The position numbers and the translations under genes are program-made. 33,460 bases of DNA from a virus, in IMG/VR virus record IMGVR_UViG_3300009151_000223, positions 1 through 33,460 of that record, one strand, 5' to 3'. How positions within the stretch are numbered: the stretch's first letter is position 1; every line of letters begins with the position of its first letter. The notes below the pieces were generated by a model, which saw nothing but the letters and a program-made list of their open reading frames with translations, made no database searches and had not been told where the DNA came from. Positions 1,239 through 33,460 of this stretch are shown here, piece by piece.

Positions 1239-1253
1239 TTTATGTTCCTTTAA

Positions 1254-1877: not shown

Positions 1878-1896
1878 TTCTTATTCCTATATTCAG

Positions 1897-1904
1897 TATT
1901 TATC
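1897..1904 (-). promoter_or_regulatory. T4-type late promoter, GATAAATA
   Basis: The octamer GATAAATA followed by CTGAATATAGG lies 19 nt upstream of the ATG at 1877, with the AGGAA ribosome-binding site in between. It partly overlaps the stop codon of the preceding gene. Confidence 0.6.
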
Positions 1905-2385
1905 ATTTATCGTCTGTTTTAGCAGCCAACATCTTAAGCAGTTCATTGCGGTCTAGACTCTTGCCCTCGCCTAACGGAGTAGCTTCAATTTCTTCAGTTT
2001 TTCCAGCAATTTTTTGATCTAGACCAGCTTTTTTAAGCTGTAAATCAAGCATTTTTAATTTTTTATTAATCTTTGCTGTTTTAGCTGTAATAGCATGGCC
2101 TAACATTGTTCCCGCACTATTGAATATTTCACTAGCAAAACGACTGTCAACTTGCATACCCAAATCCATTAAGTCTTTGTAGCTTGAGGTAGCCATACTT
2201 GCTAATTCATCCATCTCATTATCAGCCACCTCTAATCCTCTTACCTGGGGTAATGCGTTCTCAATCTTCTCTAATGTATTAAGTGCTTCACTGGTTATTT
2301 CTTCAGCATTTTCTGGCATGGAAAGAGTCAATCCTCTATCATTGTTTTCAGGAAGATCAAAAAGTTCTTGCAATTTTTTTGTCAT
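1903..2385 (-). CDS. probable small terminase subunit (gp16-like)
   Basis: This 160-residue acidic, helix-rich protein has a central segment (about residues 66-125) of long amphipathic helices, with MLGHAITAKTAKINKK as a key stretch. Length and helical layout fit T4 gp16 (164 residues), the DNA-recognition subunit that forms rings and stimulates the packaging motor gp17. The match is by layout and resemblance to marine T4-like gp16 proteins, not by a diagnostic motif. It follows gp4, another late head/packaging gene. An AATAAATA octamer ends 5 nt before the ATG, and no Shine-Dalgarno sequence is well placed. It could instead be another small coiled-coil head protein. Confidence 0.55.
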   Translation of the reverse strand: MTKKLQELFDLPENNDRGLTLSMPENAEEITSEALNTLEKIENALPQVRGLEVADNEMDELASMATSSYKDLMDLGMQVDSRFASEIFNSAGTMLGHAITAKTAKINKKLKMLDLQLKKAGLDQKIAGKTEEIEATPLGEGKSLDRNELLKMLAAKTDDK

Positions 2386-2390
2386 AAAAG

Positions 2391-2398
2391 TATTTATT
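2391..2398 (-). promoter_or_regulatory. late promoter-like octamer, AATAAATA
   Basis: AATAAATA followed by CTTTT leads directly to the ATG at 2385. Typical T4 late start spacing would put +1 at or next to the ATG. The octamer abuts the gp4 stop codon. Confidence 0.5.
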
Positions 2399-2835
2399 TA
2401 CTTTCTTTTACCGTTGTAGAAAAGGTCATCTTCAGTTATTACCCTAAAGGTATAGCCCTGACTTTTACAATATGCCATTGCAGAATGCCACTTAGCATGA
2501 TTTATTGCTACTACCATTTTGTCTTTGGCATTGGCAACTTTACTCTCAATGATGCTTTGTTTCTTAGGCTTAATCTCAACTACTTCTGCTATTTGCTTGC
2601 CAAACTTGTTTTGATAAACTACAAAAAAGTCAGGTATGTAATTCTTTGCTTGTCCTGTAAAAGGATTACGATATGGTATACTTATTGCTTCACTAGCCCA
2701 ATACAACACACTGTTGTTGTTATCACAGAAATTCATAAATGTAAGTTCCCAACCACTACGATATCTAGGAGTATGTTTACCTACATATTTTTGAGGATTT
2801 TTAGGAGTAAACGACCCCTGTGCATACTTTGCCAT
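2398..2835 (-). CDS. 4: head completion protein gp4 (gp50)
   Basis: This 145-residue protein matches T4 gp4 (150 residues), which acts late in head maturation, after packaging and before tail joining. Shared features in order are a basic N-terminus with PKN..KY, YRSGWELTFMNF near residue 25, W..E...IPY near 46-54, PDFFV near 69, EIKPKK near 86, and a C-terminal FRVITEDDL. The P-D-x(n)-E-x-K arrangement is that of a PD-(D/E)XK nuclease fold, noted for this family. The ATG overlaps the stop of the upstream gene by one base (TAATG), indicating translational coupling. Alignment to gp4 by memory is clear over the whole length. Confidence 0.88.
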   Translation of the reverse strand: MAKYAQGSFTPKNPQKYVGKHTPRYRSGWELTFMNFCDNNNSVLYWASEAISIPYRNPFTGQAKNYIPDFFVVYQNKFGKQIAEVVEIKPKKQSIIESKVANAKDKMVVAINHAKWHSAMAYCKSQGYTFRVITEDDLFYNGKRK

Positions 2836-3194
2836 TACAATACAATGTTTCTAGCAACTGATTCATTGGGTTGGGGCACAGTACCAAAACCATAGATTGC
2901 AGTTTTACTTTTAAAACTGTTTAAATAATAAGCAATGACTGTGTTAGTTTCAAGTTGTGTTTTACCTTGAATATAACTTAATAACTCTAGTACAGGGATT
3001 TGTGTTTCTTGCGATATTCTAAACAAATATACTGTAAAGTTACCTGCTATTTGTACTGAATCACATGTACTTTTAAAGTATGAAAATACAATATCATACT
3101 CGCTGGAATTGATAATTAAGTTGAATCCATAGAATTCATCAAAAATTTTAACTGTTTGGTCTAATTGTGATCGTGAATCGATAATTTGTGCCAT
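2835..3194 (-). CDS. conserved T4-like phage protein of unknown function
   Basis: This 119-residue protein is coupled to gp4 by a TAATG overlap. It is a mixed alpha/beta protein with FDEFYGFNL near residue 18, NFTVYLFRISQE near 52 and a conserved-looking C-terminus, GTVPQPNESV. Proteins with this pattern occur in marine T4-like phages beside structural genes, but no role is established that I know of. A TATAAATA late promoter and a GGAG ribosome-binding site precede it, so it is expressed with virion genes. Confidence 0.75.
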   Translation of the reverse strand: MAQIIDSRSQLDQTVKIFDEFYGFNLIINSSEYDIVFSYFKSTCDSVQIAGNFTVYLFRISQETQIPVLELLSYIQGKTQLETNTVIAYYLNSFKSKTAIYGFGTVPQPNESVARNIVL

Positions 3195-3210
3195 ATAAAT
3201 CTCCGTAGAG

Positions 3211-3218
3211 TATTTATA
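3211..3218 (-). promoter_or_regulatory. T4-type late promoter, perfect TATAAATA
   Basis: A perfect TATAAATA followed by C lies 16 nt upstream of the ATG at 3194, with GGAG between. It sits in the 27-nt gap after the tube-like gene. Confidence 0.75.
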
Positions 3219-3274
3219 CTATTAAGCTTGACCAGAACCGATACCAGTTACAATTGAGCCACCTAATACACGAC
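3217..3274. repeat. direct repeat copy A (58 bp)
   Basis: These 58 bases match 4528-4585 with only two mismatches (positions 3252 and 3258). The repeat covers the last codons and stop of the 429-residue tube-like gene. It encodes RVLGGSIVTGIGSGQA. Confidence 0.9.
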
Positions 3275-4511
3275 TAATATTTTGCCCGGGTGTAGTTTGT
3301 ACACCCGCGTTCGGCACACTGTTATTGATACCAGTACCGGTAGTATTACCTGTAGATATAATTTGCGCCGGCGCGCCTAATCCTAAATTAGGTGCTCCTG
3401 CGGTGTTGTTAGGGCTTGATCCATAACCGGGATAGTATGTATTAGTTCTTACTGCTCCGGGCAACTGTTGTTGTACTGTTGTTGCTAATAATGAATTCAA
3501 GTCTTGCACAGCTACTTGTTTTAAATTCTTATTTTTAAATGTATTATATGTTGTGCCTGCTGTACGAATAGCACCTAATATATTGCCATTTGATAAATCA
3601 TTGATAAATCCGCCGGCGGCATCTACTAAGCCACCTTGTCCCAAGATACTAGAATTAGAACCAAGTCTGTTGATAGGACTAGGTGTTCTATCATAGTTTG
3701 TTTCTATACCAAATCCAGTAACTATATTACTAGGTGAACGACCGTCAATAGCGCCTTCGGCATATTTTACTGTTTCATAATCAATAGTCATTGTGTTTGC
3801 CATTGTGCCATTGCCTTGGGCATAATCATATGTATCATGGTTGAATGCAGTAATAACAGGATTAATTAAAGTATATTGCATAAAATTATGTTGATTTATT
3901 CCATAAATTTGAATACTCTTAAAGAATGGAATCTTACTTATGCCTTGATTTGATTGACTAGTTGTACCTGATTGTTGACTAGTTTCACCAATGTAACCCC
4001 AGTCTTCATCTCCGGAAATATCACCATCATATAAATTTCTTCTATTGAAATTTATTGAACCAGTATTGTTACCATTGGTAGTTTGTCTACCTGAAGTAGA
4101 TGTAACTGGTTTATCTGCATCTTTAAAATAATATGTGTAGTAGTTATACCACATGTCATTTACTAAGTTACCCCTATCATCATGAAATGCAATATTTATA
4201 GGTTGATATTTAATTTTAGTCTGAACTAGTCGTTTTCTATTATACTGATTTAATGTAGCTGTATCAATTGTATACTTAGGTAAATCGATTGTCTTTACAG
4301 TCAAGCCAAAATTGGCACCCTGCGCTATACCTTTAGCATAGACAGCAGGGTTTATTTCAAAGTATACGTGAAATAAGAACTTTAATTTAGGAGCGTACTG
4401 GTAAGAGTTAGTCCTAAATGTTTTTGCGGCATGAGTGTAATCTCTTACATAATCGTTGCCGAAGAATCCTTTGGCAGTATCTGTTAAGAGATTTTGAAAA
4501 AATCCACTCAT
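3222..4511 (-). CDS. tail tube-like virion protein (gp19 paralogue family)
   Basis: This 429-residue protein begins with a short hydrophilic region. About residues 40-110 resemble the tail-tube/baseplate-tube fold (LKFLFHVYFEIN, then FGLTVKTIDLPKYTIDT). A central region names a native-like tube core (FHDDRGNLVNDMWYNYYTYYF). The last 130 residues are Gly/Asn/Thr-rich and probably flexible. Its final 16 residues equal those of gp19 next door, and the DNA is also repeated. It follows gp19 with a 21-nt gap and no clear promoter, so it is probably co-transcribed. T4 has tube-related baseplate proteins (gp48, gp54) and this could fill such a role, but homology to either is not shown. Confidence 0.7.
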   Translation of the reverse strand: MSGFFQNLLTDTAKGFFGNDYVRDYTHAAKTFRTNSYQYAPKLKFLFHVYFEINPAVYAKGIAQGANFGLTVKTIDLPKYTIDTATLNQYNRKRLVQTKIKYQPINIAFHDDRGNLVNDMWYNYYTYYFKDADKPVTSTSGRQTTNGNNTGSINFNRRNLYDGDISGDEDWGYIGETSQQSGTTSQSNQGISKIPFFKSIQIYGINQHNFMQYTLINPVITAFNHDTYDYAQGNGTMANTMTIDYETVKYAEGAIDGRSPSNIVTGFGIETNYDRTPSPINRLGSNSSILGQGGLVDAAGGFINDLSNGNILGAIRTAGTTYNTFKNKNLKQVAVQDLNSLLATTVQQQLPGAVRTNTYYPGYGSSPNNTAGAPNLGLGAPAQIISTGNTTGTGINNSVPNAGVQTTPGQNISRVLGGSIVTGIGSGQA

Positions 4512-4527
4512 TTAATAACTCAAATGT

Positions 4528-4585
4528 TACTATTAAGCTTGACCAGAACCGATACCAGTTACGATTGAACCACCTAATACACGAC
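4528..4585. repeat. direct repeat copy B (58 bp)
   Basis: This is the partner of 3217-3274, with 56 of 58 positions identical. It covers the end and stop codon of the gp19 gene. The protein ends are identical apart from one residue before the shared RVLGG stretch. Confidence 0.9.
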
Positions 4586-5168
4586 CGATGTTTGTACCAA
4601 CACCTGAAGTTAATGGTGACTGAACTGCATTATCATATCTGATTGTCATAGCAATTTGTACTACTTCGTTTGTACCATAGTTTAAGTTATTATAGTTTGC
4701 TTGTTGCAAGAAGCAACCATAGCATTCCCAAGTTTCTAATACTATTGGTGCGGCTGTACCGTTACCACCGTCTAGTACTTCAATATTTGTCTGAAACTTA
4801 TAGTCTTGACCAGTTGCCGCAGATGCCTGCTCAACAAAGTCTAATTGTTTCTGTAATTGCTGTCCAACTAACTTAGATACTTGACCCTGTGCGTCATCTC
4901 TAACGTTAACTGTTAATGCTTGCCATTCATGACGACCAGCAAGATACAATGTTGAATTGTAAATTGGTATTGTAATTTCACCAAAACTAACTTGAGGACG
5001 TGTGATGTCTACAACTTGTTTAGTTAATTCAATAGTTTGACCAACACCAAAATTCAGAAAGTTAACTCTGAAACGGTATTGTAATTTGGGCATCAACAGG
5101 CCTTGGTTACCACCGGCATTATCGCTAGCTACGGTCATGTTGAACAATGATTGTGAGGCTGTTGCCAT
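4533..5168 (-). CDS. 19: tail tube protein gp19
   Basis: This 211-residue protein forms the inner tube of the contractile tail. The core matches the T4 gp19 family in its opening (LQYRFRVNFLNFG near residue 30), the VVDITRPQVSF segment, YLAGRHEWQALTVNVRDD near 74-92, and the ETWECYGCFLQQANY segment near 144. It is longer than T4 gp19 (163 residues), with a Gly/Ser-rich C-terminal tail shared with the next gene. It follows the sheath gene, as gene 19 follows gene 18 in T4. It has its own GATAAATA promoter and an AGGAG ribosome-binding site, fitting very high late expression. Confidence 0.92.
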   Translation of the reverse strand: MATASQSLFNMTVASDNAGGNQGLLMPKLQYRFRVNFLNFGVGQTIELTKQVVDITRPQVSFGEITIPIYNSTLYLAGRHEWQALTVNVRDDAQGQVSKLVGQQLQKQLDFVEQASAATGQDYKFQTNIEVLDGGNGTAAPIVLETWECYGCFLQQANYNNLNYGTNEVVQIAMTIRYDNAVQSPLTSGVGTNIGRVLGGSIVTGIGSGQA

Positions 5169-5188
5169 TTTTTAATCTCCTGTATACT

Positions 5189-5196
5189 TATTTATC
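5189..5196 (-). promoter_or_regulatory. T4-type late promoter for tail tube, GATAAATA
   Basis: GATAAATA followed by AGTATACAGGAG lies 20 nt upstream of the ATG at 5168. Confidence 0.7.
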
Positions 5197-5204
5197 TTTA
5201 ATAT

Positions 5205-5226
5205 TGATACCCCTTTCGGGGTATCA
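5205..5226 (-). terminator. stem-loop between sheath and tube genes
   Basis: A perfect 9-bp stem (TGATACCCC with GGGGTATCA) closes a GAAA tetraloop on the minus-strand RNA. It starts one base after the gp18 stop codon. No U-run follows, so it may partly terminate transcription or protect the 3' end of the sheath mRNA instead of acting as a full intrinsic terminator. Confidence 0.7.
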
Positions 5227-5227
5227 T

Positions 5228-8200
5228 TTATACGTTACCTGCTATCTCACCTGTGTTTAAAATACGAACCGGGATATAGATGAATTCAGCAGCCTTAACT
5301 GGTTCAATTGCAACATCAATCCATAATTCACTTCTATCTATACGAGCCGGTGTATTGTTACTGTCGTCACAAATTACCAAATAGTCATATAGACCACGTT
5401 TAGCAACTAAATCAACCAACAATGTTTGTACAACACCTGCAATCTGATTGCGTGTTAATTGATCGTTAGGTTCGAATACGAACGGACGAGCCGCAATAGT
5501 CAACTGACGGCGTACATAGTTAATCAAACGTGCAACGTTAATTCTATCTAATGCACTTGAACTATCATAGCTGTTCTTGTTACCATAGTTTAGTAAGCCA
5601 ACGCCAGTGAAGAATACCATTGGGTTAATTTGGTTAATGTATAGTACATCACGGATACCAATACGTGTCTTAATTGGTTGAAACTCACCTGTTGTGCGAT
5701 TCAAATAACCAATGTTCAAGGCATTGTCAATATTACCACGGCGAGTACCAGCTGGGGCTAACCAAGGATAAGCCACTGTATCATTACGTAAGAATGTACG
5801 CAACATCATATGTGATGACGGTACAACTACTTGATTTCCACTTAAGTCATTTGTAATTCCGCTTGGATAGAATAGACCCAAGTAAGTATTGCGTGTGACT
5901 AAACCAGCTTCTCCTGTACTTGCGGCGCCAGCATCATTGTTAGCCCAAGCTTGAATGTCAGTTGCACTATCAGCTAATCCCAACGGAGTATCACCAATTA
6001 TATAACCTGTCTCTCCTCTATCGTTGTTTAACACAACCATGTTAGGTTGTAGTTCTGGATAATTAGGAGTAGCCATCAAATTGAAATAATTATCTTCGTC
6101 ACGGATTGCAGTGTTAGTGTCAATAGAAGCACGTAATGCCTGTACAACCATAGCACGTTGTGCGTTACGACCCATGTATGCTACGCCCTTAGTGTTGTTC
6201 CCACTTACTGATACCCAGGTATAACTGAATTCAGGTAAGTTATCAACGTTAGTTGGTGCAGCCGGATTATATGCACCTGCATTAGGATAATTTGCACTTG
6301 TAAAATAGTTTGTTCTAAATTGTTTTACATTATAACCAGATCGGCGTGTGTTAAACAACAACATACCTTGTGGATATAATGTTGCTGTTGGTACATCCAA
6401 ATCAACATAATTGCTTGATAACAACGACTTGATTGTTGGAATAGGATCATCAACTGGGCTAATTGCACCAGAACTAGACCAACGTGCATCTTGGAATAGA
6501 ACACCGTTTTGACTTGTTTGGTCAGTGGTGTCTAATAACACCCACTGATCGATCCCACTAATCTCTTGCCAACGATAAATGATTGGATATAATTCTAAAT
6601 CGCCTGTGTCAACCCATAAATCACCATATACCAATGCAGTTCCATCACTTTGAACTGTTGGCGCAGTTGCCGCTATGATAGGACCATTTGGGTCAGTTGC
6701 AGGGCTACCGGTTGTTGATGGGTGGCCGTTACTATCATATGCTGTTGTGCGATATCCTACCCAAGTGCCAGCTTTTTGAACCATGATATCTACTTCATCA
6801 ATAACAGAGTAGAACCAATTTGTGTTGTTAGCAGGATCTGCGACCGGCGCGCCCTCATTACTTGTATATGTAAATTCTACCCAGTTACTTAATTGAGTAT
6901 CAAAACTATTAATAGATGCACCTGAATAATAAGATACGCCGGTAATAGCAGTACCTCCGCCCCCAATTTTAGTAACTACCAATTGTAAATCATTAGCAGG
7001 GCTGGTGCCATTCAAAACAGTTCCCGATATAGTAATAATATTACCCACTGCGTACCCGGTACCACCTGTATAAATTCCACTACTCACCCCTAAGTAATAA
7101 GCACCAAATCTTGAGTTAATATTAAAGGTAGCTCCTGTACCACTGCCACCGGTACATGCTACATTACTCCAACCAAATATTTTGTTAGGACCATATTTAA
7201 CGCCGGAAGTTGTTCCAATTGTAAATCCTGCTTCTGCAATAACTCCATTACTGACATTAGATACAACATCACTTAAAATTATTTCACCACCTTCTGTGTG
7301 AGTTAACGTTATTGCACCGTCTGCTGATACACTGGCTATCGTGTATGGTGCACCGGATGCTGACCATGCTGTTACAAAGCCCGTAGCATTTGCACCGTTG
7401 GGAATAGTTACTACATATCCAGTTGATAAGCTTGTGCTTCCAGGAACACTAACTGATACATACAAAGTATATGGACCTACCCCAACACAATTCGTACTAT
7501 TAAATACAGGACTTGTGTTATCACCTGTTATTATTGTTGCACCTGTAGAAATTCTTTCCCATAGATAATAAGGGGCAGATGACAATGTGCCATTGAAGTT
7601 ATATTGACCATAAATTGTACCAGCTGGGATTAGGGCTCCGCCGGTTGAGTCGAGTGGTGCAGTCACTGCCCAGTCAGAATTAGCTTGACTTACATTTTTT
7701 GCTACCCAACTTGCAGTAGCAGTTTTCCATTGAGATATGCTAGGGTACAAACCGTTACCTGAAGTTCCAATCTTTATCCACACAGAACCAGTTGGTCTTG
7801 GAGTGGTTTGCGAACTAGACCACAATGGCATTTGAGCAGAAGTACCATACGCAACAATAGCTTGATTATATGTTCCTGGAGTAATTCCACATAATGCTAA
7901 TGGAGTGTTACTTCCGTCAGTAAGAGTAATATAAGCAACTGCTCCTGGCGCAACTATTTGATTTGATATAATTTGTAATTTACCGCTAACCACTCTAGCA
8001 GTTACAACCGGAGTATTAATGTTGTTAATTGCAGTTGCAACATTTGCCACAGTTGTACCAGTAACGCTAACAGTAATAGTATAAAGCCCGCTTACATCCA
8101 TTGTAAAGTTACTTGTAGCACTCAATGTAGGGTTAGATGTAGAACCTTGAACAGTAGGAACATCACTTCTCCAAGTGCCGCCACCTACGCTACCCCAAAT

Positions 8201-22419: not shown

Positions 22420-22740
22420 TTATACTCTGAAACTTTCCCCGCATCCACAACGGTCTCTCTCGTTTGGATTATTAAATTCAAAACCTTCATTTAATCCATT
22501 GCGTACAAAATCTACAGTCATGCCCTGTACGTATGGAATGCTTTTGGGATCGACATAGAAGATACATCCGCTACAGTCTACTCTTATATCAGTTTCATTT
22601 GGATTATCTACATATTCAAGTACATATGCTAGACCAGAACAACCTGTTGTTTTAACACCTATTCTTATACCTACGCCCGTACCTCGTTTTGTAAGGGTTT
22701 GATTAACCTTTTTTGCGGCTTTATCGGTCAGTGTTATCAT
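22420..22740 (-). CDS. IscA/HesB-type iron-sulfur carrier protein
   Basis: This 106-residue protein has the A-type carrier signature. C34 lies in TTGCSGLAY and C98 and C100 in RCGCGESF, the three cysteines that bind an Fe-S cluster or iron. Two further cysteines, C56 and C59, form a CSGC pair not needed for the family. Length is typical. MITLTDKAAKKV is the standard start. A TTG seven codons upstream (22761) also fits the frame but overlaps the SGNH gene. Phage-encoded homologues are known in marine T4-like phages and may help mature host or phage Fe-S proteins. TATAAATA ends 5 nt before the ATG. Confidence 0.9.
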   Translation of the reverse strand: MITLTDKAAKKVNQTLTKRGTGVGIRIGVKTTGCSGLAYVLEYVDNPNETDIRVDCSGCIFYVDPKSIPYVQGMTVDFVRNGLNEGFEFNNPNERDRCGCGESFRV

Positions 22741-22745
22741 AGATG

Positions 22746-22753
22746 TATTTATA
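22746..22753 (-). promoter_or_regulatory. T4-type late promoter, perfect TATAAATA
   Basis: TATAAATA followed by CATCT leads directly to the IscA-like ATG at 22740. The octamer contains the stop codon of the upstream SGNH gene. Confidence 0.65.
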
Positions 22754-23606
22754 GGCCCCAACGGTTCTTGATAATATTATAAAATCCATCTGCTATAAAT
22801 TGCTGACCTTCTATGCTAGTATGATAGCCGGGATCATTTGGGCCATATGGATCTTTTGGAGTAGAGCCAGGTGGGGGCATAATGCAAAACACGCTGTAAG
22901 GATTTTTTTTATCATCATCCAATATATATATCTCATCAATCACATTAGTTAATGCTTCTTTCATATAGTTAATATGGGGCCACAATGAGTAACCGGTGTT
23001 GATTAAAAATGGTATATTATTTGCTTGTAATTGAACTAGCCCATCTCGTATAATCCATTCATCCATTTGTCTTTTCCAAGAACCATCATATATGTAATTA
23101 ATATACATTTCTAATGCTGTTTGCACTTCAGGCAGGACAGGTTGATTAAGTCTATATGGATGATGGTGATTATCTGCCAATGAGTGTATGGTTTCTACTA
23201 TCAACCTAGAATAATTATTACCATAATTTATATTATCTAAGCCTGCATCTTTGTAATATGACTTACCATCATCTTTTTTAAAAGTGTCATATATTACAGG
23301 TCGCAACAACATATCCATCAAGATATGTGTCAACTTACTAAAATCAAGTTTAGTCTTTTCCTTAATAAAATTAGGAATTTCTATTCTGTCATATGAGGTA
23401 GGGGTGATAATAGCAAAATCAGGTTTTTGTCTGAGTACCTCATCAATTTGAATTCTAATACCACCGTTACTGCAACCCTGTCGAGCAATATTTTGTAAGT
23501 TCCAGCCTAATTTATCTACTAGAATTTCGCTCCACGCTGTACCGTTATATTCTTCTTTAGTGCTGACTGCGCTGAAGCTACAGCCACATACCATAAGTTT
23601 TTTCAT
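22749..23606 (-). CDS. SGNH/GDSL-type hydrolase-like protein
   Basis: This 285-residue protein has block I as CGCSFS (S10 the likely nucleophile, with Cys in place of the Asp of GDS), GCSNGGI near 44 as block II, and D258-x3-H262 in DPGYHTSIEG as block V. Such enzymes are esterases, often removing acetyl groups from sugars. The match is by motif only. Its ATG follows the stop of the 106-residue gene without a gap. With the downstream glycosyltransferase-like gene it suggests a glycan-modifying role, which is inference. The N-terminus MKKLMVCGCSF is typical of phage-encoded SGNH proteins. Confidence 0.72.
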   Translation of the reverse strand: MKKLMVCGCSFSAVSTKEEYNGTAWSEILVDKLGWNLQNIARQGCSNGGIRIQIDEVLRQKPDFAIITPTSYDRIEIPNFIKEKTKLDFSKLTHILMDMLLRPVIYDTFKKDDGKSYYKDAGLDNINYGNNYSRLIVETIHSLADNHHHPYRLNQPVLPEVQTALEMYINYIYDGSWKRQMDEWIIRDGLVQLQANNIPFLINTGYSLWPHINYMKEALTNVIDEIYILDDDKKNPYSVFCIMPPPGSTPKDPYGPNDPGYHTSIEGQQFIADGFYNIIKNRWGL

Positions 23607-26196: not shown

Positions 26197-27345
26197 TTAG
26201 GTTCTTCCAGCCAAATTCTGACGGCTGAAGCCCATTCTATCTACAAATTTGAGTCCGTTACTGACAAAACCTTCTTGAGTCTGTGTTCCGTCATCTAGAT
26301 AGCCCTTCACAGGACTTGCTTCTGCGGCTTTATTGAGTTGGTCTACGATAGCCATTTTCAATTGATATAAACTAACCCATATAGTGAATGCTCCAACTAA
26401 TCCTGCTTTATTAGCTTCTAGGTGCTGAGTCAACTTTGTTTTCATAGCATCAGTCATTGGACGACTATTAAAGTATTCCATAAATCCATCTACTAAATTA
26501 TTCAAATCACCTGCAACAATTTTCTTATTGATATAGGTAGTAAACAATCCACGAAATGTTGTTGCGGCTTGCGGAGCTGTATTTAACAATTGATCCACAG
26601 CAGGACCATACTTTTTAATATCAGATTGTGCTTGGTTAACTAATTTACTGCTTATCTTTAATTTAGGAGTGATGGGCATTTTTGCAGGAACAATAGCTAC
26701 ATTACTGTTATTTTTCAAACTACCAATGCCACCGTCCAATGGTGTGGCTTCATCTGTTGTAGCGGCATTTGGAGGAATAAACTGGTGTACCACAATAGCG
26801 GCTTGTTTTCCTTTAAATAACTGTCCTACTTCACTGTTTGCCTCAACTGTGTATGCAATACCATTGGGATTAGCTTTGAACTTATACATACCGTTTTGTT
26901 CTTGCAACGGTTGACTGAATAGTAAGTCTCCCCAGTAATAACCTTTGCTTCTATCTGACTTTTCTAGTCCTGGCCAAATTTCGGCAATTAATTGATGTAA
27001 TCCACTACGGTCAACTCCTCGGGCTCTATCATATTCAACAAATTGTTCGGGGCTGAATACTTGACGACCTGATAAGTCTTTTTTATTGAACATATGTTTG
27101 TCCATAATACTGAACTTGCCATTTGTACCACGCCCAAAAATCAATGCAGGATATCCATCCCACTTAATTGTGACTGTTGCTGGATTTTTAACTGTGTCTA
27201 CGCTTGCTTGAACAGCACGGTTAGCACCTTGAGTGCCGTCTAAAAATATTAAATCCTCAGGATGGTCTAAATGTCCCTTAGCCTCTTTAATGGAAAATTT
27301 ATCAATTTTAGACTTTAATATCGACAGGGACTCAGATAGGCTCAT
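26197..27345 (-). CDS. conserved phage protein with nucleotidyltransferase-like KWDG motif
   Basis: This 382-residue protein belongs to the DUF6267-type group of marine T4-like phages. The front contains GHLDHPEDLIFLDG (24-37), then TIKWDGYPALIFGRG (59-73) and GKFSIMDKHMFNK (76-88). The KxDG at 61-64 equals motif I of DNA and RNA ligases and capping enzymes, where the Lys is adenylated. YYWGDLLF (136-143) could be motif III, and AAIVVHQFI (182-190) a later strand. Motifs IV and V are not clear, so activity is unproven. It overlaps the 84-residue gene by 14 bases. Confidence 0.68.
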   Translation of the reverse strand: MSLSESLSILKSKIDKFSIKEAKGHLDHPEDLIFLDGTQGANRAVQASVDTVKNPATVTIKWDGYPALIFGRGTNGKFSIMDKHMFNKKDLSGRQVFSPEQFVEYDRARGVDRSGLHQLIAEIWPGLEKSDRSKGYYWGDLLFSQPLQEQNGMYKFKANPNGIAYTVEANSEVGQLFKGKQAAIVVHQFIPPNAATTDEATPLDGGIGSLKNNSNVAIVPAKMPITPKLKISSKLVNQAQSDIKKYGPAVDQLLNTAPQAATTFRGLFTTYINKKIVAGDLNNLVDGFMEYFNSRPMTDAMKTKLTQHLEANKAGLVGAFTIWVSLYQLKMAIVDQLNKAAEASPVKGYLDDGTQTQEGFVSNGLKFVDRMGFSRQNLAGRT

Positions 27346-27586
27346 TGTTGCTATTCTTTTTTAGTGATTTTGCAAATTTACTCTGGTCTTTATTTTTTAT
27401 AGCACTTAGTAGCTTACGCTCTAAAATTTCAGCCTGAACAGGCGTATAATGCCTGTTAATCATTTCTAGTAAATTAATTGCACTGGTAATGATGTTATGA
27501 CCTCGGCTCTCAATAATGTGACTGGTGTCACGGTTATTACCGATTGACTCTAATTCTTCCAACAGGCTGCGAGTTTGTTTTTGCAT
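27332..27586 (-). CDS. small conserved phage protein, unknown function
   Basis: This 84-residue helical protein contains RSLLEELESIGNNRDTSHIIE and NIITSAINLLEMINRHY (about 30-47). The C-terminus is basic (KFAKSLKK). It resembles small proteins conserved next to the KWDG gene in marine T4-like phages. It overlaps that gene by 14 bases, so the two probably act or are made together. The octamer ACTAAATA lies 7 nt before the ATG, while the nearest GAGGTAAG is too far for a normal ribosome-binding site. Confidence 0.68.
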   Translation of the reverse strand: MQKQTRSLLEELESIGNNRDTSHIIESRGHNIITSAINLLEMINRHYTPVQAEILERKLLSAIKNKDQSKFAKSLKKNSNNEPI

Positions 27587-27593
27587 GATATAG

Positions 27594-27601
27594 TATTTAG
27601 T
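27594..27601 (-). promoter_or_regulatory. late promoter-like octamer, ACTAAATA
   Basis: ACTAAATA followed by CTATATC leads to the ATG at 27586. It is in the 16-nt gap after the helicase stop. Confidence 0.4.
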
Positions 27602-27602
27602 C

Positions 27603-29063
27603 TTACCTCTTCAAACTGTTGAGTAAATTTTTGAGTTTAGAACCCTGAACGTCTACTGCGACCTTTTTATTTAAGGGTTCTAATACTTCACCTGTAGCTT
27701 GGTCAATAATAGGTTCTGTAGAAACTAACGTAGATTGTGCTCTCACTTGATTCATAATGTCGGTTGGACTAGGACTAGGTCTATACTTTGCTTGTTGATC
27801 CGCATACCCGTCAGGATCGCTATCACTGATACGCATTGTTTCAATGTCATATTCTAAGTCAATTTTCATACCCACACCCGTTGAACTACGACTTTTCATA
27901 CATTGAATCTGATACTTACCACGCTCACGCATACTGCGACTTGTAAAGATACCAAACACATTATCTGCTGTATTAATTTTACTGATACCACCGGCAATGT
28001 GACTGTGGTCGAATTCAATCTCATCGACTGCACTACGATTCAACTGCGATGCAGTTACTAATAACACGCCCATCTCTTTAGCTAAGTTACGCAATTCTTC
28101 TGCAACATATTTGTCTTTAATGAACTGATCGTTAGGATTAACTTTAACAGAGACCGGCATAACCAAATCTAAGTAGTCAACCATTACAAAATCAATTTTA
28201 ATGCCTGTTTGAATTTGTACTTCTTTTAAGTAAGCACGAATATCATTTACATTACTTTGAGCGGGTAATCCTTTAACACGATACTTTCCTGCTTTTTTAC
28301 CAACCATCTTAACCTTGAGATCGGTAGTGTCAATGTCTTTACGAATTGCTTTAGTACCCATCTGTGTTAACATAGCATCAGTACGCAAACTTGTTAGTTC
28401 TTCACTTAATTCAAGTGTGATGTAGACTCCGCTCATTCCTGCTTGTAACCAGTTCAATGCCAAGTTCATCATTACTAATGACTTACCTGATCCTGAGCCA
28501 CCTGCAAAGATGTTAAGTTCACCCCGACTCATACCACCATATAAGATACGATCCATCTGGGGCCAGCCTGTGCTAACTTGTCCGCCTGCGTTGAAGTATT
28601 TGTTAATACGACCTTTAGGATCAAAGAAGTAATCTGTACCCATGTCTCGTTGTAAACTAATTTGTACTGCATCTTTGATTAATTTTTCAACAGGACTAAA
28701 GTCACCTTTCTCAAGTAAGTCTGCGGCTTTAAGAATTGCTCTTTCTAGTTCTTGCCGTTTAGTAAATGATTCAAACGCATCAAAGAACCATTCGTTGTGA
28801 CCTTCATTCAGTTCTGGGATAGGTTCTATATCAATTCCAGTCATTGCTTTAACTTGAGTATGATCTGGTAATACTTTGTATTTGTTTGTATGTTCTTTAA
28901 ATAACTCTGCGGCAGGTCTCAATGACTTATCAAAGTTTTCGCTGTTCATAATGTTCATAACCCGAGTGTATAATTCGGCGTTAGTCATCATCATTCGTAA
29001 AAAGTACTTTTGTACTTCCGGGGTATAGTCAATTTGTTTTTTAGAATCCGTTTTGTTTACCAA
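27603..29063 (-). CDS. 41: replicative DNA helicase gp41
   Basis: This 486-residue DnaB-type helicase unwinds DNA at the replication fork, working with primase gp61. Walker A is GGSGSGKS (188-195) and Walker B VMVDYLDL (293-300). A helical N-terminal domain (1-135) and a linker precede the RecA-like core, and the downstream ASQLNRSAV and AGGISKINTADN segments fit DnaB motifs H3 and H4. The frame starts with TTG, not ATG, preceded by AAAGGA at 8-nt spacing, so TTG is a good start. It overlaps the primase gene by 23 bases and is likely co-expressed from the primase promoter. Confidence 0.93.
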   Translation of the reverse strand: MVNKTDSKKQIDYTPEVQKYFLRMMMTNAELYTRVMNIMNSENFDKSLRPAAELFKEHTNKYKVLPDHTQVKAMTGIDIEPIPELNEGHNEWFFDAFESFTKRQELERAILKAADLLEKGDFSPVEKLIKDAVQISLQRDMGTDYFFDPKGRINKYFNAGGQVSTGWPQMDRILYGGMSRGELNIFAGGSGSGKSLVMMNLALNWLQAGMSGVYITLELSEELTSLRTDAMLTQMGTKAIRKDIDTTDLKVKMVGKKAGKYRVKGLPAQSNVNDIRAYLKEVQIQTGIKIDFVMVDYLDLVMPVSVKVNPNDQFIKDKYVAEELRNLAKEMGVLLVTASQLNRSAVDEIEFDHSHIAGGISKINTADNVFGIFTSRSMRERGKYQIQCMKSRSSTGVGMKIDLEYDIETMRISDSDPDGYADQQAKYRPSPSPTDIMNQVRAQSTLVSTEPIIDQATGEVLEPLNKKVAVDVQGSKLKNLLNSLKR

Positions 29064-30021
29064 TTTTTTTCCTTTGCATTTCTATTTTAATTTTGCTCAT
29101 TGTAGCAGACTGCAATATACTGAGTAGTGTAGGTAGTCTACCATATTTGACAATTGCATCATTAACATCTTTTACGTCCTTGTCCCAGTGTGGGATACTG
29201 ACGCTATAGCCTAGTTGAATAGCCCTCTCACAGGAGTCAAATCCTGTTTTATCACGGTCGGGAACAAAAATGATTTGTCTGTTAAGTTGTGCTAGTAGTT
29301 CTGCTTGGTCATCGTTAATCGTGTTATGAGTTAACGCACAAGCACCTAGACTCAATGCATCAAAGATGCCCTCGACTAGTATACAAACACTTTGATTGGG
29401 TTGTTGAAAATCATATCCAAATACATAACCAGGTTGTTGTTCGTTGATATATTTTGGAATCTTATTGTCTAAGAACCTACTTGTGTGACCAACAATCTTG
29501 TTTTTGTATGTATAGGGAATGATGATGCGATTTCCCATGCGACTTGATTCGTTGGGAGTGACCATGAAAGGATATTCACTACTACTTATACCTCTTGATT
29601 TTAGATAGTCTACATATACTTTGTGTAATTGATTATTTTGGTCAAGTAGTTCTGCATCGTCAGGCAGCTTATGTTCGTCAAACTTAATTTTAGTTTTCTT
29701 TTTAGGTTGAGTAAAGTCTAGTATATCTTTTTGTTGTAAACTTTCTAAACTCCACTTACTAATCTGCGTATCATCTACTCCGCACCAAGTTAATAGTTGT
29801 CGTGTATTCTTTGTTAAACTTCTTCCAAGTGTGAACCCACACTTGAACCCACAATTAAAGCAATGGTATAACCAATTAATTGATCCATCAAAATGAACAC
29901 CACCTCGGCTTCTGGCATCAGTTTTGTGGCCGCGATGGTTACAACATACAGCATTGAAACTGTGCCATCCACCTTGAGTGAGTTTTTTCTTGCCTGGAAT
30001 TATAGACAGAATATCGAACAT
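29041..30021 (-). CDS. 61: DNA primase gp61
   Basis: This 326-residue primase makes RNA primers for lagging-strand synthesis. A zinc-binding module at the front has C26/C27, H29, H32, C54 and C57 (CFNCGF). The TOPRIM part has VEG at 216-218 within LVEGIFDALSLGA, and DRD at 255-257. Size is close to T4 gp61 (342). A sigma70-type promoter lies immediately upstream with no room for a ribosome-binding site. The gene overlaps the helicase start, a typical primase-helicase pair. Confidence 0.93.
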   Translation of the reverse strand: MFDILSIIPGKKKLTQGGWHSFNAVCCNHRGHKTDARSRGGVHFDGSINWLYHCFNCGFKCGFTLGRSLTKNTRQLLTWCGVDDTQISKWSLESLQQKDILDFTQPKKKTKIKFDEHKLPDDAELLDQNNQLHKVYVDYLKSRGISSSEYPFMVTPNESSRMGNRIIIPYTYKNKIVGHTSRFLDNKIPKYINEQQPGYVFGYDFQQPNQSVCILVEGIFDALSLGACALTHNTINDDQAELLAQLNRQIIFVPDRDKTGFDSCERAIQLGYSVSIPHWDKDVKDVNDAIVKYGRLPTLLSILQSATMSKIKIEMQRKKIGKQNGF

Positions 30022-30027
30022 CTACAT

Positions 30028-30056
30028 AGTGTAACATAAATCTGTCACACAGTCAA
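30028..30056 (-). promoter_or_regulatory. sigma70-type promoter of primase-helicase operon
   Basis: TTGACT (30056-30051) and TACACT (30033-30028) are separated by 17 nt. ATGTAG then leads to the ATG at 30021, so the normal start site coincides with the start codon. Confidence 0.78.
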
Positions 30057-30059
30057 TAC

Positions 30060-30770
30060 TTATCTTGCCAATATGTTGGTTACTACGCCCGCATTGCTCA
30101 CAAACCCCATACGAATGAATGGGTGGAATCCATTAATGTTATAATGGAATGTGTCTGTTGTTTCAGTATAACTATATATTGTACTAATTGGATACCAGTC
30201 TGTATTACCAATAGTAGAACCTTCAATCAATACATTACCATAGAAGTCGGTATATGTGGCTTGTAGTGTTAATCTAGGATTATCAGTTGTGGTATAAACA
30301 CTGGTATAATATACAACCGAATTAGAATCAGGTACATACGATCCGTCATTTGAATACCAATCTGGATTAGGATAACCTTGTCCAGTAGGAATAGTTATTT
30401 CATTGCTAGGAACAAAGCTAGGTAATATACTATTAACAATATTCATATCACCCCGGCCACCTGCATTTTGGTCTACAAATACAGGGTAATCAAATGTGCC
30501 TACTGGAATTTCTAATGTATAATAACATTTTTGTGCCTCAATTTCTTCTAGCTCTCCGGGATTTAACATCAATGCGGCAATACCGGTTGCACCTAATTGA
30601 ATAGTAAGTGCTTTTCTAATAAGAACTGTGACACCGGTAGAATTTAAAATTCTACAAGATATTTCTTTTCCTGTGATATTGACGGGTTTTTGTTCTTGAT
30701 TTAAGAACTGAAATTGAATTTGATTATCTACACCTTTGTGTAGAGTGAGTGGCTTTGCATACTGGGGCAT
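30060..30770 (-). CDS. virion protein, possibly baseplate or fibre-associated
   Basis: This 236-residue protein starts MPQYAKPLTLHKGVDNQI. Its first 110 residues form a beta-type domain (FQFLNQEQKPVNITGKEISC, then LMLNPGELEEIEAQKCYYTL) like BppU-type baseplate upper-part N-domains. The rest is Tyr/Thr/Asn-rich beta sequence (VVYYTSVYTTTDNPRLTLQ), which would suit fibre or baseplate contacts. I chose the ATG at 30770 because AGGAG lies 6 nt before it. Upstream in-frame starts at 30848 and 30863 would add 26 or 31 poorly supported residues. A late promoter lies about 84 nt upstream. Confidence 0.65.
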   Translation of the reverse strand: MPQYAKPLTLHKGVDNQIQFQFLNQEQKPVNITGKEISCRILNSTGVTVLIRKALTIQLGATGIAALMLNPGELEEIEAQKCYYTLEIPVGTFDYPVFVDQNAGGRGDMNIVNSILPSFVPSNEITIPTGQGYPNPDWYSNDGSYVPDSNSVVYYTSVYTTTDNPRLTLQATYTDFYGNVLIEGSTIGNTDWYPISTIYSYTETTDTFHYNINGFHPFIRMGFVSNAGVVTNILAR

Positions 30771-30853
30771 ATAACTCCTAGGGGAATTTCCTGATAAAAG
30801 AATAACGATTTGTCGTTGGGTATAAACGAATACTTGAGTTGAGTACATAATCG

Positions 30854-30861
30854 TATTTATC
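30854..30861 (-). promoter_or_regulatory. T4-type late promoter, GATAAATA (minus)
   Basis: GATAAATA followed by CGATT ATG gives a leader of about 78 nt to the AGGAG-supported ATG at 30770. It would also place +1 on the ATG at 30848, which is in frame. Confidence 0.6.
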
Positions 30862-30886
30862 AAAATATATTGCCAGGCTACCCGAT

Positions 30887-30894
30887 GATAAATA
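30887..30894 (+). promoter_or_regulatory. T4-type late promoter, GATAAATA (plus)
   Basis: GATAAATA lies 20 nt before the plus-strand ATG at 30915 and 25 nt from the minus-strand late promoter, so the two are divergent. Confidence 0.6.
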
Positions 30895-30914
30895 TTTCGG
30901 TCATAAGAACAACA

Positions 30915-31295
30915 ATGTTACCTAACGAATTTTTCACAAAACTAACAGAAAACCACCCCTTCATCACCGTGTGCTCCTACGCTAATCAAGATTATGTGGG
31001 GATTGTACAGAATAGAGATGATGTTGTCACTACTATTTACGATTATGGTGCTATAATCGACCCAATGGCTAAAGAGAAATTCTTAGAATTAGGTGATATA
31101 TGGTGGTGGGAATCTAACAGATTGATTCCTATTAATTTATTCCTTAAAGATGAATGGATCATATTCAAGCCATATATACGAACTTTTCACAATAAAAGTC
31201 TAACTATCGTGCATGGCCCTGCTTGTAGCATAAATGAACTACACAAACGTAGGACAAAACGCCGTAGTATTACGCTTGTGAAACGGATGTTGTAA
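30915..31295 (+). CDS. conserved marine T4-like phage protein, unknown function
   Basis: This 126-residue protein begins MLPNEFFTKLTENHPFITV. It has an aromatic-rich core (KFLELGDIWWWESNRLIPINLFL near 52) and a basic C-terminus (ELHKRRTKRRSITLVKRML). The pattern is conserved in marine T4-like phages without a known role; the basic tail could bind nucleic acid. I chose the ATG at 30915 over a TTG at 30870, because the late promoter lies between them. It converges with the PolIII-alpha-like gene and overlaps it by 26 bases. Confidence 0.7.
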   Translation: MLPNEFFTKLTENHPFITVCSYANQDYVGIVQNRDDVVTTIYDYGAIIDPMAKEKFLELGDIWWWESNRLIPINLFLKDEWIIFKPYIRTFHNKSLTIVHGPACSINELHKRRTKRRSITLVKRML

Positions 31296-31851
31296 GTAAA
31301 TTCATATGTACAACGACTAACTGTGCATAAGCTATAGCATGACTCTTTTTGAAACTATATCCGTCATTCTCACGGTCCCATATAGTTTGACTCACTTCTT
31401 TCCAACTCTTACCAATTAAATGCTTTTTAGCAGGACGAATCAATGCTAAAAACATTGCTAATCTAGGGATACTATCAATTGGCTCAGTCATCTTCTGAAT
31501 ACTTTGATAGTGATTTGATAGGTGAATTAATTTCTCAACAAATACTCTATCATTTAGTTTAGACCAATTTGGTTCATACATCAATTCAACTAAATGTGTT
31601 TCATCACGAACCTGTGAATACACATGCACATTCAACAAGTCTAGTTTGAAATATCCACGTTTTTCTGCGTCTTCATAATGTAGTGCTGACATATTATTAA
31701 CAGGATCATATGGGATATCTGTTATGTAGACACCAGTATTGTGTCTACGAATAGGAGTGATATTACGCATTGATGCAGGTGTATGTTTGATTAGAGACAG
31801 TAGTTTATCTCTATCTCCAAAATCTATGTCAATGTCTGAATCAATTCTCAT
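31270..31851 (-). CDS. very small DNA polymerase III alpha-like (C-family palm) protein
   Basis: This 193-residue protein shows ordered motifs of the bacterial polymerase III alpha palm: SDIDIDF (5-11, catalytic pair D8 and D10), RRHNTGVYI (35-43), RGYFKLDLLN (65-74, third catalytic Asp D71), LAMFLALIRP (131-140) and FKKSHAIAYA (167-176). DnaE counterparts are PDFDVDF, HAxGVVIA, GLVKFDFLG, ALxRPGP and FNKSHxxAYA. PHP, most fingers, OB and beta-binding parts are missing; normal DnaE has over 1000 residues. It has an AAAGGAAC ribosome-binding site. Whether it polymerises DNA, or is a dead or regulatory derivative, is unknown. Similar small proteins occur in cyanophages. Confidence 0.72.
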   Translation of the reverse strand: MRIDSDIDIDFGDRDKLLSLIKHTPASMRNITPIRRHNTGVYITDIPYDPVNNMSALHYEDAEKRGYFKLDLLNVHVYSQVRDETHLVELMYEPNWSKLNDRVFVEKLIHLSNHYQSIQKMTEPIDSIPRLAMFLALIRPAKKHLIGKSWKEVSQTIWDRENDGYSFKKSHAIAYAQLVVVHMNLLTTSVSQA

Positions 31852-32605
31852 TAAAGAATGTTCCTTTAAAAAATCTATTGTCTTTTTGTAACTGTATCAA
31901 TTTTGGTCTTGTTTGCTCGGAATTAAATATCTCTGATATAATTGATGCCAGAACTTTATTATTATCCAATGATAGGTGTGATGCTCGTTTATCAAAAACT
32001 TTTCCTTTAAAACTATCTTTATGTACTAAACCGCGTTGATCCAATAATTCACCAAAACTTACATCTGCTAAACCAGTTAAGCACGGCCCGAATGCTTCCG
32101 ATATATCTATATATAAATCTACTAATTTATTATTTGTTGGAAAATCTACATAACTTTGCTCAAAAGGCATTAAGTTAATCAATTTTATATTTGTATCTTT
32201 GCACAATTTGTTTACACTATTGAAGATATTTTGATATGTAAATAATTGTAACTCCTCAGAATACAATATAGGATGAGCTTCAAGTAATATATCAACATAT
32301 TTTTTTAGTGAGTCATCACCGTGCGAATCAAAACCCCCGACATGACCTTTAGGTCTAATAAGAGATAGTTTAGTAAGGTGTTCAGGCAAATAACTCCACC
32401 TACTATAATGTGAGTATGTAAAAACTATCTTGTCATATTTTTTATAATGTTTTAAAAAAAGTTCATATGACCACCATATAGAAGTAGATGGTTCACCGTA
32501 GCATACATATCCTTCGTCTAATATCTCTGCTAATAGGCCTGTCCAACTTCGATTTTTGTGGTTATCAACTACTGCAAAACTATCTCCAAATATACCTATT
32601 GTCAT
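31841..32605 (-). CDS. second SGNH-like protein
   Basis: This 254-residue protein begins MTIGIFGDSFAV, block I of the SGNH fold with S9 as possible nucleophile. SIWWSYELFLKHYKKYDKIV follows, and a SHLS segment near 214 could supply the catalytic His. A classical block III is not clear, so the enzyme may be divergent or inactive. It overlaps the exonuclease by ATGA and the next gene by 11 bases, so it is translated with them. It differs strongly from the SGNH protein at 22749-23606. Its role between an exonuclease and a polymerase-like gene is unexplained. Confidence 0.65.
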   Translation of the reverse strand: MTIGIFGDSFAVVDNHKNRSWTGLLAEILDEGYVCYGEPSTSIWWSYELFLKHYKKYDKIVFTYSHYSRWSYLPEHLTKLSLIRPKGHVGGFDSHGDDSLKKYVDILLEAHPILYSEELQLFTYQNIFNSVNKLCKDTNIKLINLMPFEQSYVDFPTNNKLVDLYIDISEAFGPCLTGLADVSFGELLDQRGLVHKDSFKGKVFDKRASHLSLDNNKVLASIISEIFNSEQTRPKLIQLQKDNRFFKGTFFNEN

Positions 32606-33150
32606 TTTGTCTCCATTAATCCTACTTTAATTAACTTAGTATACGCTTGTTGCACAACAATTGCTTGTCTTTCGGCATCTTCTACAGCTTTGTGTGTCGT
32701 AACATGTCCACCATCTTTTAATTTTACGCCGGCAATATCATACAATGTTCTTGTGTCTCTAATGTCCCAAAAGTTCCACGGTGTGTTTTTATCAAATTGT
32801 TTCCAAGCATGATCCATAACTACTACATCAAAACTTGCACCGTTACTCCATGCACACTTACTACGATTCCAGCAGAATTTGTATAATTGATTCATTGCAT
32901 TTTCGTATGACACACGGTCTCTGTCGCCCATAGCTTCTTCAATTGCTTCTGGACTTTGTTTGCCCCACCATTCCATTGTTGCATCATTGATACTGCGATT
33001 GTAAATCTCTGTTTGATCCTCAATCGTAGGACGAATCTCAATTTTATCAATAATGCCATGACCACGTGGGTCAAATAATACTGCACCAATAGTTAGAATC
33101 ACACAGTCTGGTGTTGTGTCTAGTGATTCAATGTCAATCATTACATCCAT
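32602..33150 (-). CDS. DEDDh 3'-5' exonuclease (DexA/RNase T-like)
   Basis: This 182-residue enzyme has D6 and E8 in MIDIESL (exo I), NGASFDVVVMDHAW near 103 (exo II, Asp) and HKAVEDAERQA near 154 (exo III, H-x4-D). T4 DexA has 227 residues and degrades single strands 3' to 5'; the DnaQ proofreading subunit has the same motif order. AAAGGC precedes the ATG at 33150, and MIDIE at 33141 is an alternative start. The stop overlaps the next ATG (ATGA). Name dexA is plausible but not certain. Confidence 0.87.
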   Translation of the reverse strand: MDVMIDIESLDTTPDCVILTIGAVLFDPRGHGIIDKIEIRPTIEDQTEIYNRSINDATMEWWGKQSPEAIEEAMGDRDRVSYENAMNQLYKFCWNRSKCAWSNGASFDVVVMDHAWKQFDKNTPWNFWDIRDTRTLYDIAGVKLKDGGHVTTHKAVEDAERQAIVVQQAYTKLIKVGLMETK

Positions 33151-33151
33151 G

Positions 33152-33460
33152 TTATGCCTTTAATATTTTCCATACGTATTTTTTTTCTAGTATGTCTTGA
33201 AATTTTCTTGCTTCACTTTCTTTGTGGAAGACTGCTCCTCTAATCTCATACATCTGTTCCAAATAATTACCATATTCATGTCTAGTGTCCTGATAATACT
33301 CTATGTCATCAATCCATAATGTATCATACTCACCACTATTAAGCATTATTGCTAATCCTGCCTGGTTACATTTTACTTCACCAAATAATATATCTAACAA
33401 TTTTATGTTAGCTACACTATCTTTGATGTTTTTAAATGTAGGCCATTCTACTGACCAATT
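33152..33460 (-). CDS. hypothetical protein, cut by right window edge
   Basis: The frame stays open from the stop at 33152 to the window edge, giving 102 residues of the C-terminal part. It contains LDILFGEVKCNQAGLAI, DTLWIDDIEYYQDTRHEYGN and an acidic helix before KKYVWKILKA. A TTG at 33400 is the only possible internal start seen, and the open frame beyond it suggests the gene begins outside the window. It ends one base before the exonuclease ATG. I do not recognise it. Confidence 0.6.
   Translation of the reverse strand, partial: NWSVEWPTFKNIKDSVANIKLLDILFGEVKCNQAGLAIMLNSGEYDTLWIDDIEYYQDTRHEYGNYLEQMYEIRGAVFHKESEARKFQDILEKKYVWKILKA

Follow-up and report, generated by a model that had tools for sequence, protein, structure and literature searches.

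Why would a virus whose relatives carry a B-family polymerase also encode a very short protein bearing the palm motifs of the DNA polymerase III alpha subunit (PolIII alpha)? The question arises from a 33,460-nt stretch of viral DNA (IMG/VR record IMGVR_UViG_3300009151_000223, positions 1 to 33,460; hereafter, the window), in which a preliminary description placed a 193-residue mini-palm at 31270..31851. An open reading frame (ORF) with an ATG start is indeed present there on the minus strand. Homology, alignment, a structural model, and structural matches identify its product as the C-terminal half of a split minimal PolIII alpha, comprising the Mg-binding palm strands and reduced fingers. 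We consider it probable that a minimal, split C-family polymerase has this protein as its C-terminal subunit and likely performs short, distributive synthesis at the phage fork.

All five motifs listed in the preliminary description (SDIDIDF, RHNTGVYI, GYFKLDLL, LALIRP, and KKSHAIAYA) were found, in the order claimed, and the ORF belongs to the PHROG family phrog_11778 ("DNA polymerase"; E = 7.6e-58). On this sequence evidence, the relationship to PolIII alpha is far beyond chance, and the proposed homology to its palm, with conserved aspartates and much smaller size, is supported. In Escherichia coli DnaE, the relevant motifs are PDFDVDF from P400, KFDFL from K553, RPGPL from R639, NKSHS from N757, and GRGS from G361. 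The equivalents in the ORF are D6, D8, and D10; K69 and D71; R139 and P140; and S170 and H171. A passage of PMC3919608 gives D401, D403, and D555 as the metal ligands of E. coli DnaE, and describes D405 as absolutely conserved in DnaE groups and replaced by Asn in PolC. Because position 400 of the E. coli sequence MPDFDVDF is a proline, D401, D403, and D405 correspond to D6, D8, and D10, and the metal ligands are D6, D8, and D71. The three palm aspartates are kept, as claimed, but they had been named as D8, D10, and D71.

These residues are strongly conserved among 143 distinct ORFs of the family. Within the DIDID motif (D6 to D10; 31822..31836, minus strand, as for all motifs of this gene), D6 and D8 are each kept in 139/139 and D10 in 140/140. 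The third metal ligand lies in K69-L70-D71 (31639..31647; K553-F554-D555 in E. coli), where both K69 and D71 occur in 141/141, as do R139-P140 (31432..31437; E. coli R639-P640) and H171 (31339..31341), the last also being present in 11/11 named phages. H171 is the counterpart of E. coli H760, the proposed steric gate against ribonucleotides according to part of PMC8485763. The counts omit the two to four ORFs gapped at each position, and since the patterns used to fetch sequences contain GRGS, KKSHA, and DIDID, those for the residues concerned are partly due to selection. The 11 named phages came from tblastn (C-terminal half) and from the PF07733 profile (GRGS half, described below), not from motif patterns. 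A 17-row alignment that includes them is invariant at D6, D8, D10, H37, K69, D71, R139, P140, K142, H171, and Y175, so that all four aspartates under discussion prove conserved. A larger alignment, A5, consists of 53 rows hand-picked out of 161 (the window plus 160 IMG/VR loci) and omits L196 and L207, which have a stop codon in the fetched stretch, and loci whose match starts after DxDxD. In phage Atu_ph07, the annotated start of the C-terminal half (L084 3941-4516) lies inside the gene, at 4022, and cuts off DxDxD; an in-frame ATG at locus position 3941 restores the family N-terminus.

Relatives of the ORF are widespread. A tblastn search of 50,697 phage records identified them in 63, and two other family members used as queries likewise returned 63 records (a phage with both a RefSeq and a GenBank entry is counted twice). 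By organism name, the hosts are Pseudomonas, Klebsiella, Erwinia, Salmonella, Escherichia, Xanthomonas, Agrobacterium, Pectobacterium, Cronobacter, Serratia, Sinorhizobium, Salicola, Vibrio, Alishewanella, and Stenotrophomonas. All are phages of proteobacteria and 0/63 are cyanophages, contrary to the expectation of cyanophage relatives. Nor are the relatives unnamed hypotheticals, given that PHROGs names the family DNA polymerase and that part of PMC7824862 (2021) describes it as split. Among metagenomic viral contigs in IMG/VR, the C-terminal half was found in 435 stretches with one set of six peptide patterns, one of which contains DIDID, and in at least 594 with a set based on KKSHA; loci for the GRGS half were fetched with GRGS. 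Candidate cellular versions of the mini-form were located in genome contigs at 13 loci. Every one of these is on a metagenome-assembled-genome contig, and the phyla are varied, so they are probably misbinned phage DNA.

The ORF begins at the metal-binding DxDxD strand and lacks the GS motif expected of C-family polymerases; the nucleotide-binding part that would come before this strand, including GRGS, was found only in a partner protein (13/13 aligned). This partner is the product of a second short C-family gene, identified by PF07733 profile search in 14/17 genomes of related loci; the three records without a match are contigs of 20, 112, and 88 kb. The GRGS half has ~170 residues and ends 29 to 31 residues past GRGS (14/14). 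It belongs to phrog_11127 ("DNA polymerase"; E 7.4e-39 or better in the four tested), and its family profile matches residues 318-392 of E. coli DnaE (E 3.2e-6). Invariant in the 13 aligned sequences are R99, E103, G134, G136, R137, G138, S139, and S143. For the window virus, the partner was identified on IMG/VR contig G001 (174 kb), which is 100% identical to the window over 1-8000 and 99.97% identical over 26273-33460, and is a contig of the same virus. There the two genes are separated by ~43 kb.

Both halves occur in 62/63 phage records, as judged by comparing by eye the accessions in the tblastn and profile listings; the sole miss is a 109-kb record, PP728206. Tree distances of the two halves are correlated over 14 pairs (r = 0.91; 0/2000 permutations as high). 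This fits joint inheritance and is on its own no proof of interaction, and the two trees disagree at several weakly supported nodes. When the two halves are summed, 35 residues separate the GRGS Ser from the first motif Asp in this virus (31-49 across the 14 pairs), compared with 37 in unsplit E. coli DnaE. A fused form was also sought, and no single ORF among the frames of 266 loci matches both halves.

AlphaFold2 models of both proteins are confident (predicted local distance difference test, pLDDT, 89 for the GRGS half and 91 for the ORF). The seven best Foldseek matches of the ORF in the PDB are all PolIII alpha chains (probability 0.93-0.99), and the best matches of the GRGS-half model are likewise PolIII alpha, which bears out the predicted resemblance to the DnaE/PolC palm. 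In structural alignments, GRGS-half residues 69-168 superimpose on E. coli DnaE 279-393 (4jom, Z 10.5) and residues 77-168 on PolC 825-965 (3f2b, Z 8.0). ORF residues 1-193 cover E. coli DnaE 397-784 (2hnh, Z 8.7), PolC 968-1299 (3f2b, Z 9.6), and Taq polymerase 458-841 (2hpi, Z 9.1). The two sets of matches adjoin, a gap of two or three residues in the chain being left unaligned between them. Computed from these predicted models, the halves correspond to complementary, adjacent parts of the DnaE/PolC palm fold.

The protein is greatly reduced relative to DnaE. Spacings were measured from motif positions, since global hhalign placed alignments A1 and A5 wrongly on E. coli DnaE. The short spacing noted earlier is real, D10 and D71 being 61 residues apart versus 150 for E. 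coli D405 to D555. Between the second and third Asp (D8 to D71) there are 63 residues versus 152 in E. coli DnaE, a loss of 89, and between RP and the steric-gate His (R139 to H171) there are 32 versus 121, also a loss of 89. In E. coli DnaE, we take the first of these stretches to be the site of the thumb insertion and the second to be the fingers. The statement that most of the fingers are absent is right in that large parts of the thumb and fingers are gone, but the RP motif and the steric-gate His helix are kept. A search for a separate fingers gene found none: PF17657 exceeded the cut-off in 1/17 records, and that match is the C-terminal half of XacN1 itself. As for PHP, also reported absent, PF02811 was detected in 0/17 related records at E 0.001 by a search that was positive in 14/14 control genomes. 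As regards the HhH, OB, and clamp-binding C-terminal parts, structural alignment spans the entire ORF, which stops at the counterpart of DnaE residue 784 with nothing beyond.

How might such a pair function? The C-terminal half would contribute the three aspartates that bind metal and the portion of the fingers carrying the steric-gate His, and the GRGS half, from its distant gene, would contribute the nucleotide-binding helix. The two would join noncovalently into one palm, giving a product of ~360 residues that has no PHP, a greatly diminished thumb and fingers, and apparently none of the C-terminal parts of DnaE. Because the two proteins between them retain the residues that bind metal and nucleotide and select the sugar, the pair is predicted to be, most likely, an active DNA polymerase. 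Since the thumb and the clamp-binding tail are reduced or gone, its synthesis should be distributive. The enzyme could extend gp61 primers or fill gaps beside the B-family replicase, touching the phage clamp loader or primosome.

Replisome genes lie near both halves. In the window, the C-terminal half is followed by a convergent ORF of phrog_11637 (30870..31295, plus strand; no assigned function), whose end overlaps the end of the polymerase-half gene, then by another gene, a primase, and a helicase. The primase is gp61-like and of DnaG type (29041..30021, minus strand; Pfam Toprim_2, 1.1e-5; phrog_47 DNA primase, 1.6e-36; synteny), and the helicase is a gp41-like DnaB replicative helicase (27603..29063, minus strand; PF03796, 1.3e-18; phrog_19, 9.4e-68). 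A gene annotated as primase or helicase lies within ~4 kb downstream of the C-terminal half in 10/11 named phages, and a recognizable homologue of the convergent ORF accompanies that half in 9/11. The position of the GRGS half relative to the gp44 clamp-loader gene was examined in three phages. The gp44 gene is fourth downstream of the GRGS half in RaK2 and Atu_ph07; in PA5oct it is third and carries a hypothetical annotation, although it matches phrog_168 (2.4e-81). In Slicko01, it is the C-terminal half that lies ~1.4 kb downstream of gp44. IMG/VR contig L191 has gp44 and a gp62-like gene, then a phrog_11058 gene, then the GRGS half, which is separated from the C-terminal half by one or more other ORFs; all lie on one strand within 4 kb, the two halves being <1 kb apart. 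The phrog_11058 gene is also found zero to three genes upstream of the C-terminal half in 5/7 named phages tested; in the other two, Slicko01 and XacN1, the gene tested gave no match. Given these primase, helicase, and gp44 neighbors, both halves stay with clamp-loader or primosome genes despite differing arrangements.

Several further features of these loci deserve mention. Proteins of phrog_11758, a family with no assigned function (L087 1995-2789, from RaK2; L191 1527-1997; L091 2452-2877, from Slicko01), resemble gp62, the small subunit of the clamp loader. Those of L191 and Slicko01 follow gp44 and also match phrog_225 "clamp loader" (5.8e-6 and 3e-4, respectively). This family may fill the gp62 gap reported for phage CBB in part of PMC5259590. 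Near the C-terminal half, the window encodes a stand-alone 3'-5' exonuclease (32602-33150; PF16473, 1.8e-33; phrog_255, 1e-40), which could be a proofreading partner. Farther away is a phage-encoded iron-sulfur cluster assembly protein (22420-22761; PF01521, E 2.4e-19).

A B-family polymerase is present in 12/17 records, including 11/11 named phages, in agreement with the preliminary description; the five records without a match are IMG/VR contigs of 20-174 kb. A relative, G002 (524 kb), has a B-family polymerase, and two separate ORFs of this type were identified in it (C1 19736-21112 and 508767-510176; frames of 1117 and 917 aa). PF00136 matches two frames each in Atu_ph07 (418 and 578 aa), PA5oct (825 and 379 aa), and Slicko01 (578 and 322 aa), so the B-family polymerase of these phages may be split too.

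Several observations weigh against a split polymerase working at the fork. Single-sequence searches of Pfam and the PDB with the ORF returned no polymerase match, and Pfam searches with four relatives gave two subthreshold fingers matches, one unrelated subthreshold match, and one blank. A family hidden Markov model profile of the C-terminal half matched DnaE chains in the PDB only at E of at least 1.6, outranked by an unrelated coiled coil (a GCN4 construct, E 0.19), and by hhalign only parts align with E. coli DnaE (best E 9.9e-5). The Foldseek E-values are weak (best 8.2e-3 for the ORF and 2.6e-2 for the GRGS half, none <0.001), Z scores of 8-10 are moderate on the alignment tool's own scale, and GRGS-half residues 1-68 match nothing in the structural alignment. 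With so much of the thumb and fingers gone, activity could be weak or altered. XacN1 lacks the primase neighborhood, and no B-family polymerase was found in G001, a 174-kb contig that may be incomplete. The primer-extension or gap-filling role is a best guess read from gene neighborhood alone. The homology, the fold, the complementarity of the halves, their co-occurrence, and the conserved active site are computational results, from which we infer physical assembly, DNA synthesis, and the job of the enzyme.

The main rival is an active two-subunit enzyme used for repair or lesion bypass rather than routine fork work, which we regard as possible and somewhat unlikely. The reduced thumb and the lack of a proofreading domain in either half would fit low-processivity synthesis, a B-family polymerase is present in 12/17 records, and passages of PMC7824862 offer repair as an alternative to one-strand synthesis. 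The primosome and clamp-loader genes in the neighborhoods examined argue for the fork instead. Those neighborhoods are not free of repair genes, as in GAP32 and RaK2 a UvsW-type helicase gene sits a few genes upstream.

It is improbable that the protein is a relic without activity, serving in regulation or as a scaffold, or that it acts as a decoy toward PolIII partners of the host, as had been suggested. Much of the fingers and thumb is lost, which speaks for such a reading, but the catalytic residues of both halves are invariant in 11/11 named phages, and no distinct ORF with a residue at these positions has replaced D6, D8, or D71 (139, 139, and 141 ORFs). With PHP and everything past the DnaE 784 equivalent missing from the ORF, a decoy would have little to bind. 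Still harder to sustain is the original notion of a stand-alone mini-palm needing no partner. The protein does come from a reading frame of its own, and its model is well folded (pLDDT 91), but its missing GS part is a separate protein encoded elsewhere in the genome, found alongside it in all but one of the phage records and matching the residues just before the ORF in the same PDB chains. Rejoining of the halves by a split intein, as occurs with DnaE in cyanobacteria, can practically be dismissed, because there is no intein-sized extension on either the tail after GRGS (29-31 residues) or the lead before the first Asp (1-18 residues, with the start codons chosen in this analysis).

The split polymerase can be set beside a system described in a 2021 survey of jumbo phages, reportedly by Iyer. 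Passages of that paper (Viruses 2021; PMC7824862) describe, for jumbo phages of group 2.2, a minimal PolIII alpha that is specific to phages and split into NTP-binding and Mg/DNA-binding proteins encoded by distant genes, and propose that it cooperates with the family B enzyme in one-strand synthesis or repair. Parts of other papers mention a truncated 172-aa alpha-like protein in CBB (PMC5259590) and a PolIII alpha in Atu_ph07 (PMC6102473). We found no report of an experimental test of the split enzyme in the open-licence PubMed Central literature. Because those passages of PMC7824862 already describe the split minimal PolIII alpha, the window virus adds another member. As there, it occurs alongside genes of a T4-like replisome; a family B polymerase is present in the named phages and in G002, and none was found in G001. 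The window virus differs in being an uncultured relative, for which the breakpoint, the reductions, and the clamp-loader linkage were measured here. Jumbo phages exceed 200 kb; G001 is 174 kb and may be incomplete, and its relative G002 is 524 kb. The pair also occurs in the 141-kb phages Slicko01 and Slickus01, outside the jumbo-phage setting of those passages, and its compact arrangement in L191 departs from the distant genes described there. The breakpoint, the reductions, the primosome and clamp-loader linkage, the L191 arrangement, and the 141-kb phages are added here, although some may appear in figures of PMC7824862.

Among gene families, phrog_11778 and phrog_11127 are the direct families of the halves, and PHROG library output does not link them. 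Unsplit phage C-family polymerases are represented by phrog_11165 (782 positions), to which the matches are weak (the GRGS half to 39-111 and the ORF to 458-494). These are single chains about twice as long as the split pair, and with only ~40 positions before the GRGS-half match they probably also lack PHP. With E. coli DnaE, the split pair shares the palm fold, the equivalents of D401/D403/D555, GRGS, RP, and H760, and an Asp at D405, where PolC has Asn. DnaE differs in being one chain of 1160 aa with PHP, full thumb and fingers, HhH, OB, and C-terminal domains.

It is a tentative proposal, with somewhat less than even prospects, that the active site, divided between two independently encoded proteins, is never rejoined and works as a C-family polymerase with little or no thumb, linked to the primosome and clamp loader of a replisome built around a B-family enzyme. 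If so, the coming together of the halves would provide a point at which synthesis is controlled. The enzyme would be an unusually small C-family polymerase with a natural catalytic site made from two separate chains. With this pair, what a second polymerase does in a T4-like replisome becomes a testable question. The pair is also relevant to the proposal, found in part of PMC7824862, that minimal forms of this kind are models for the ancestral bacterial replicase.
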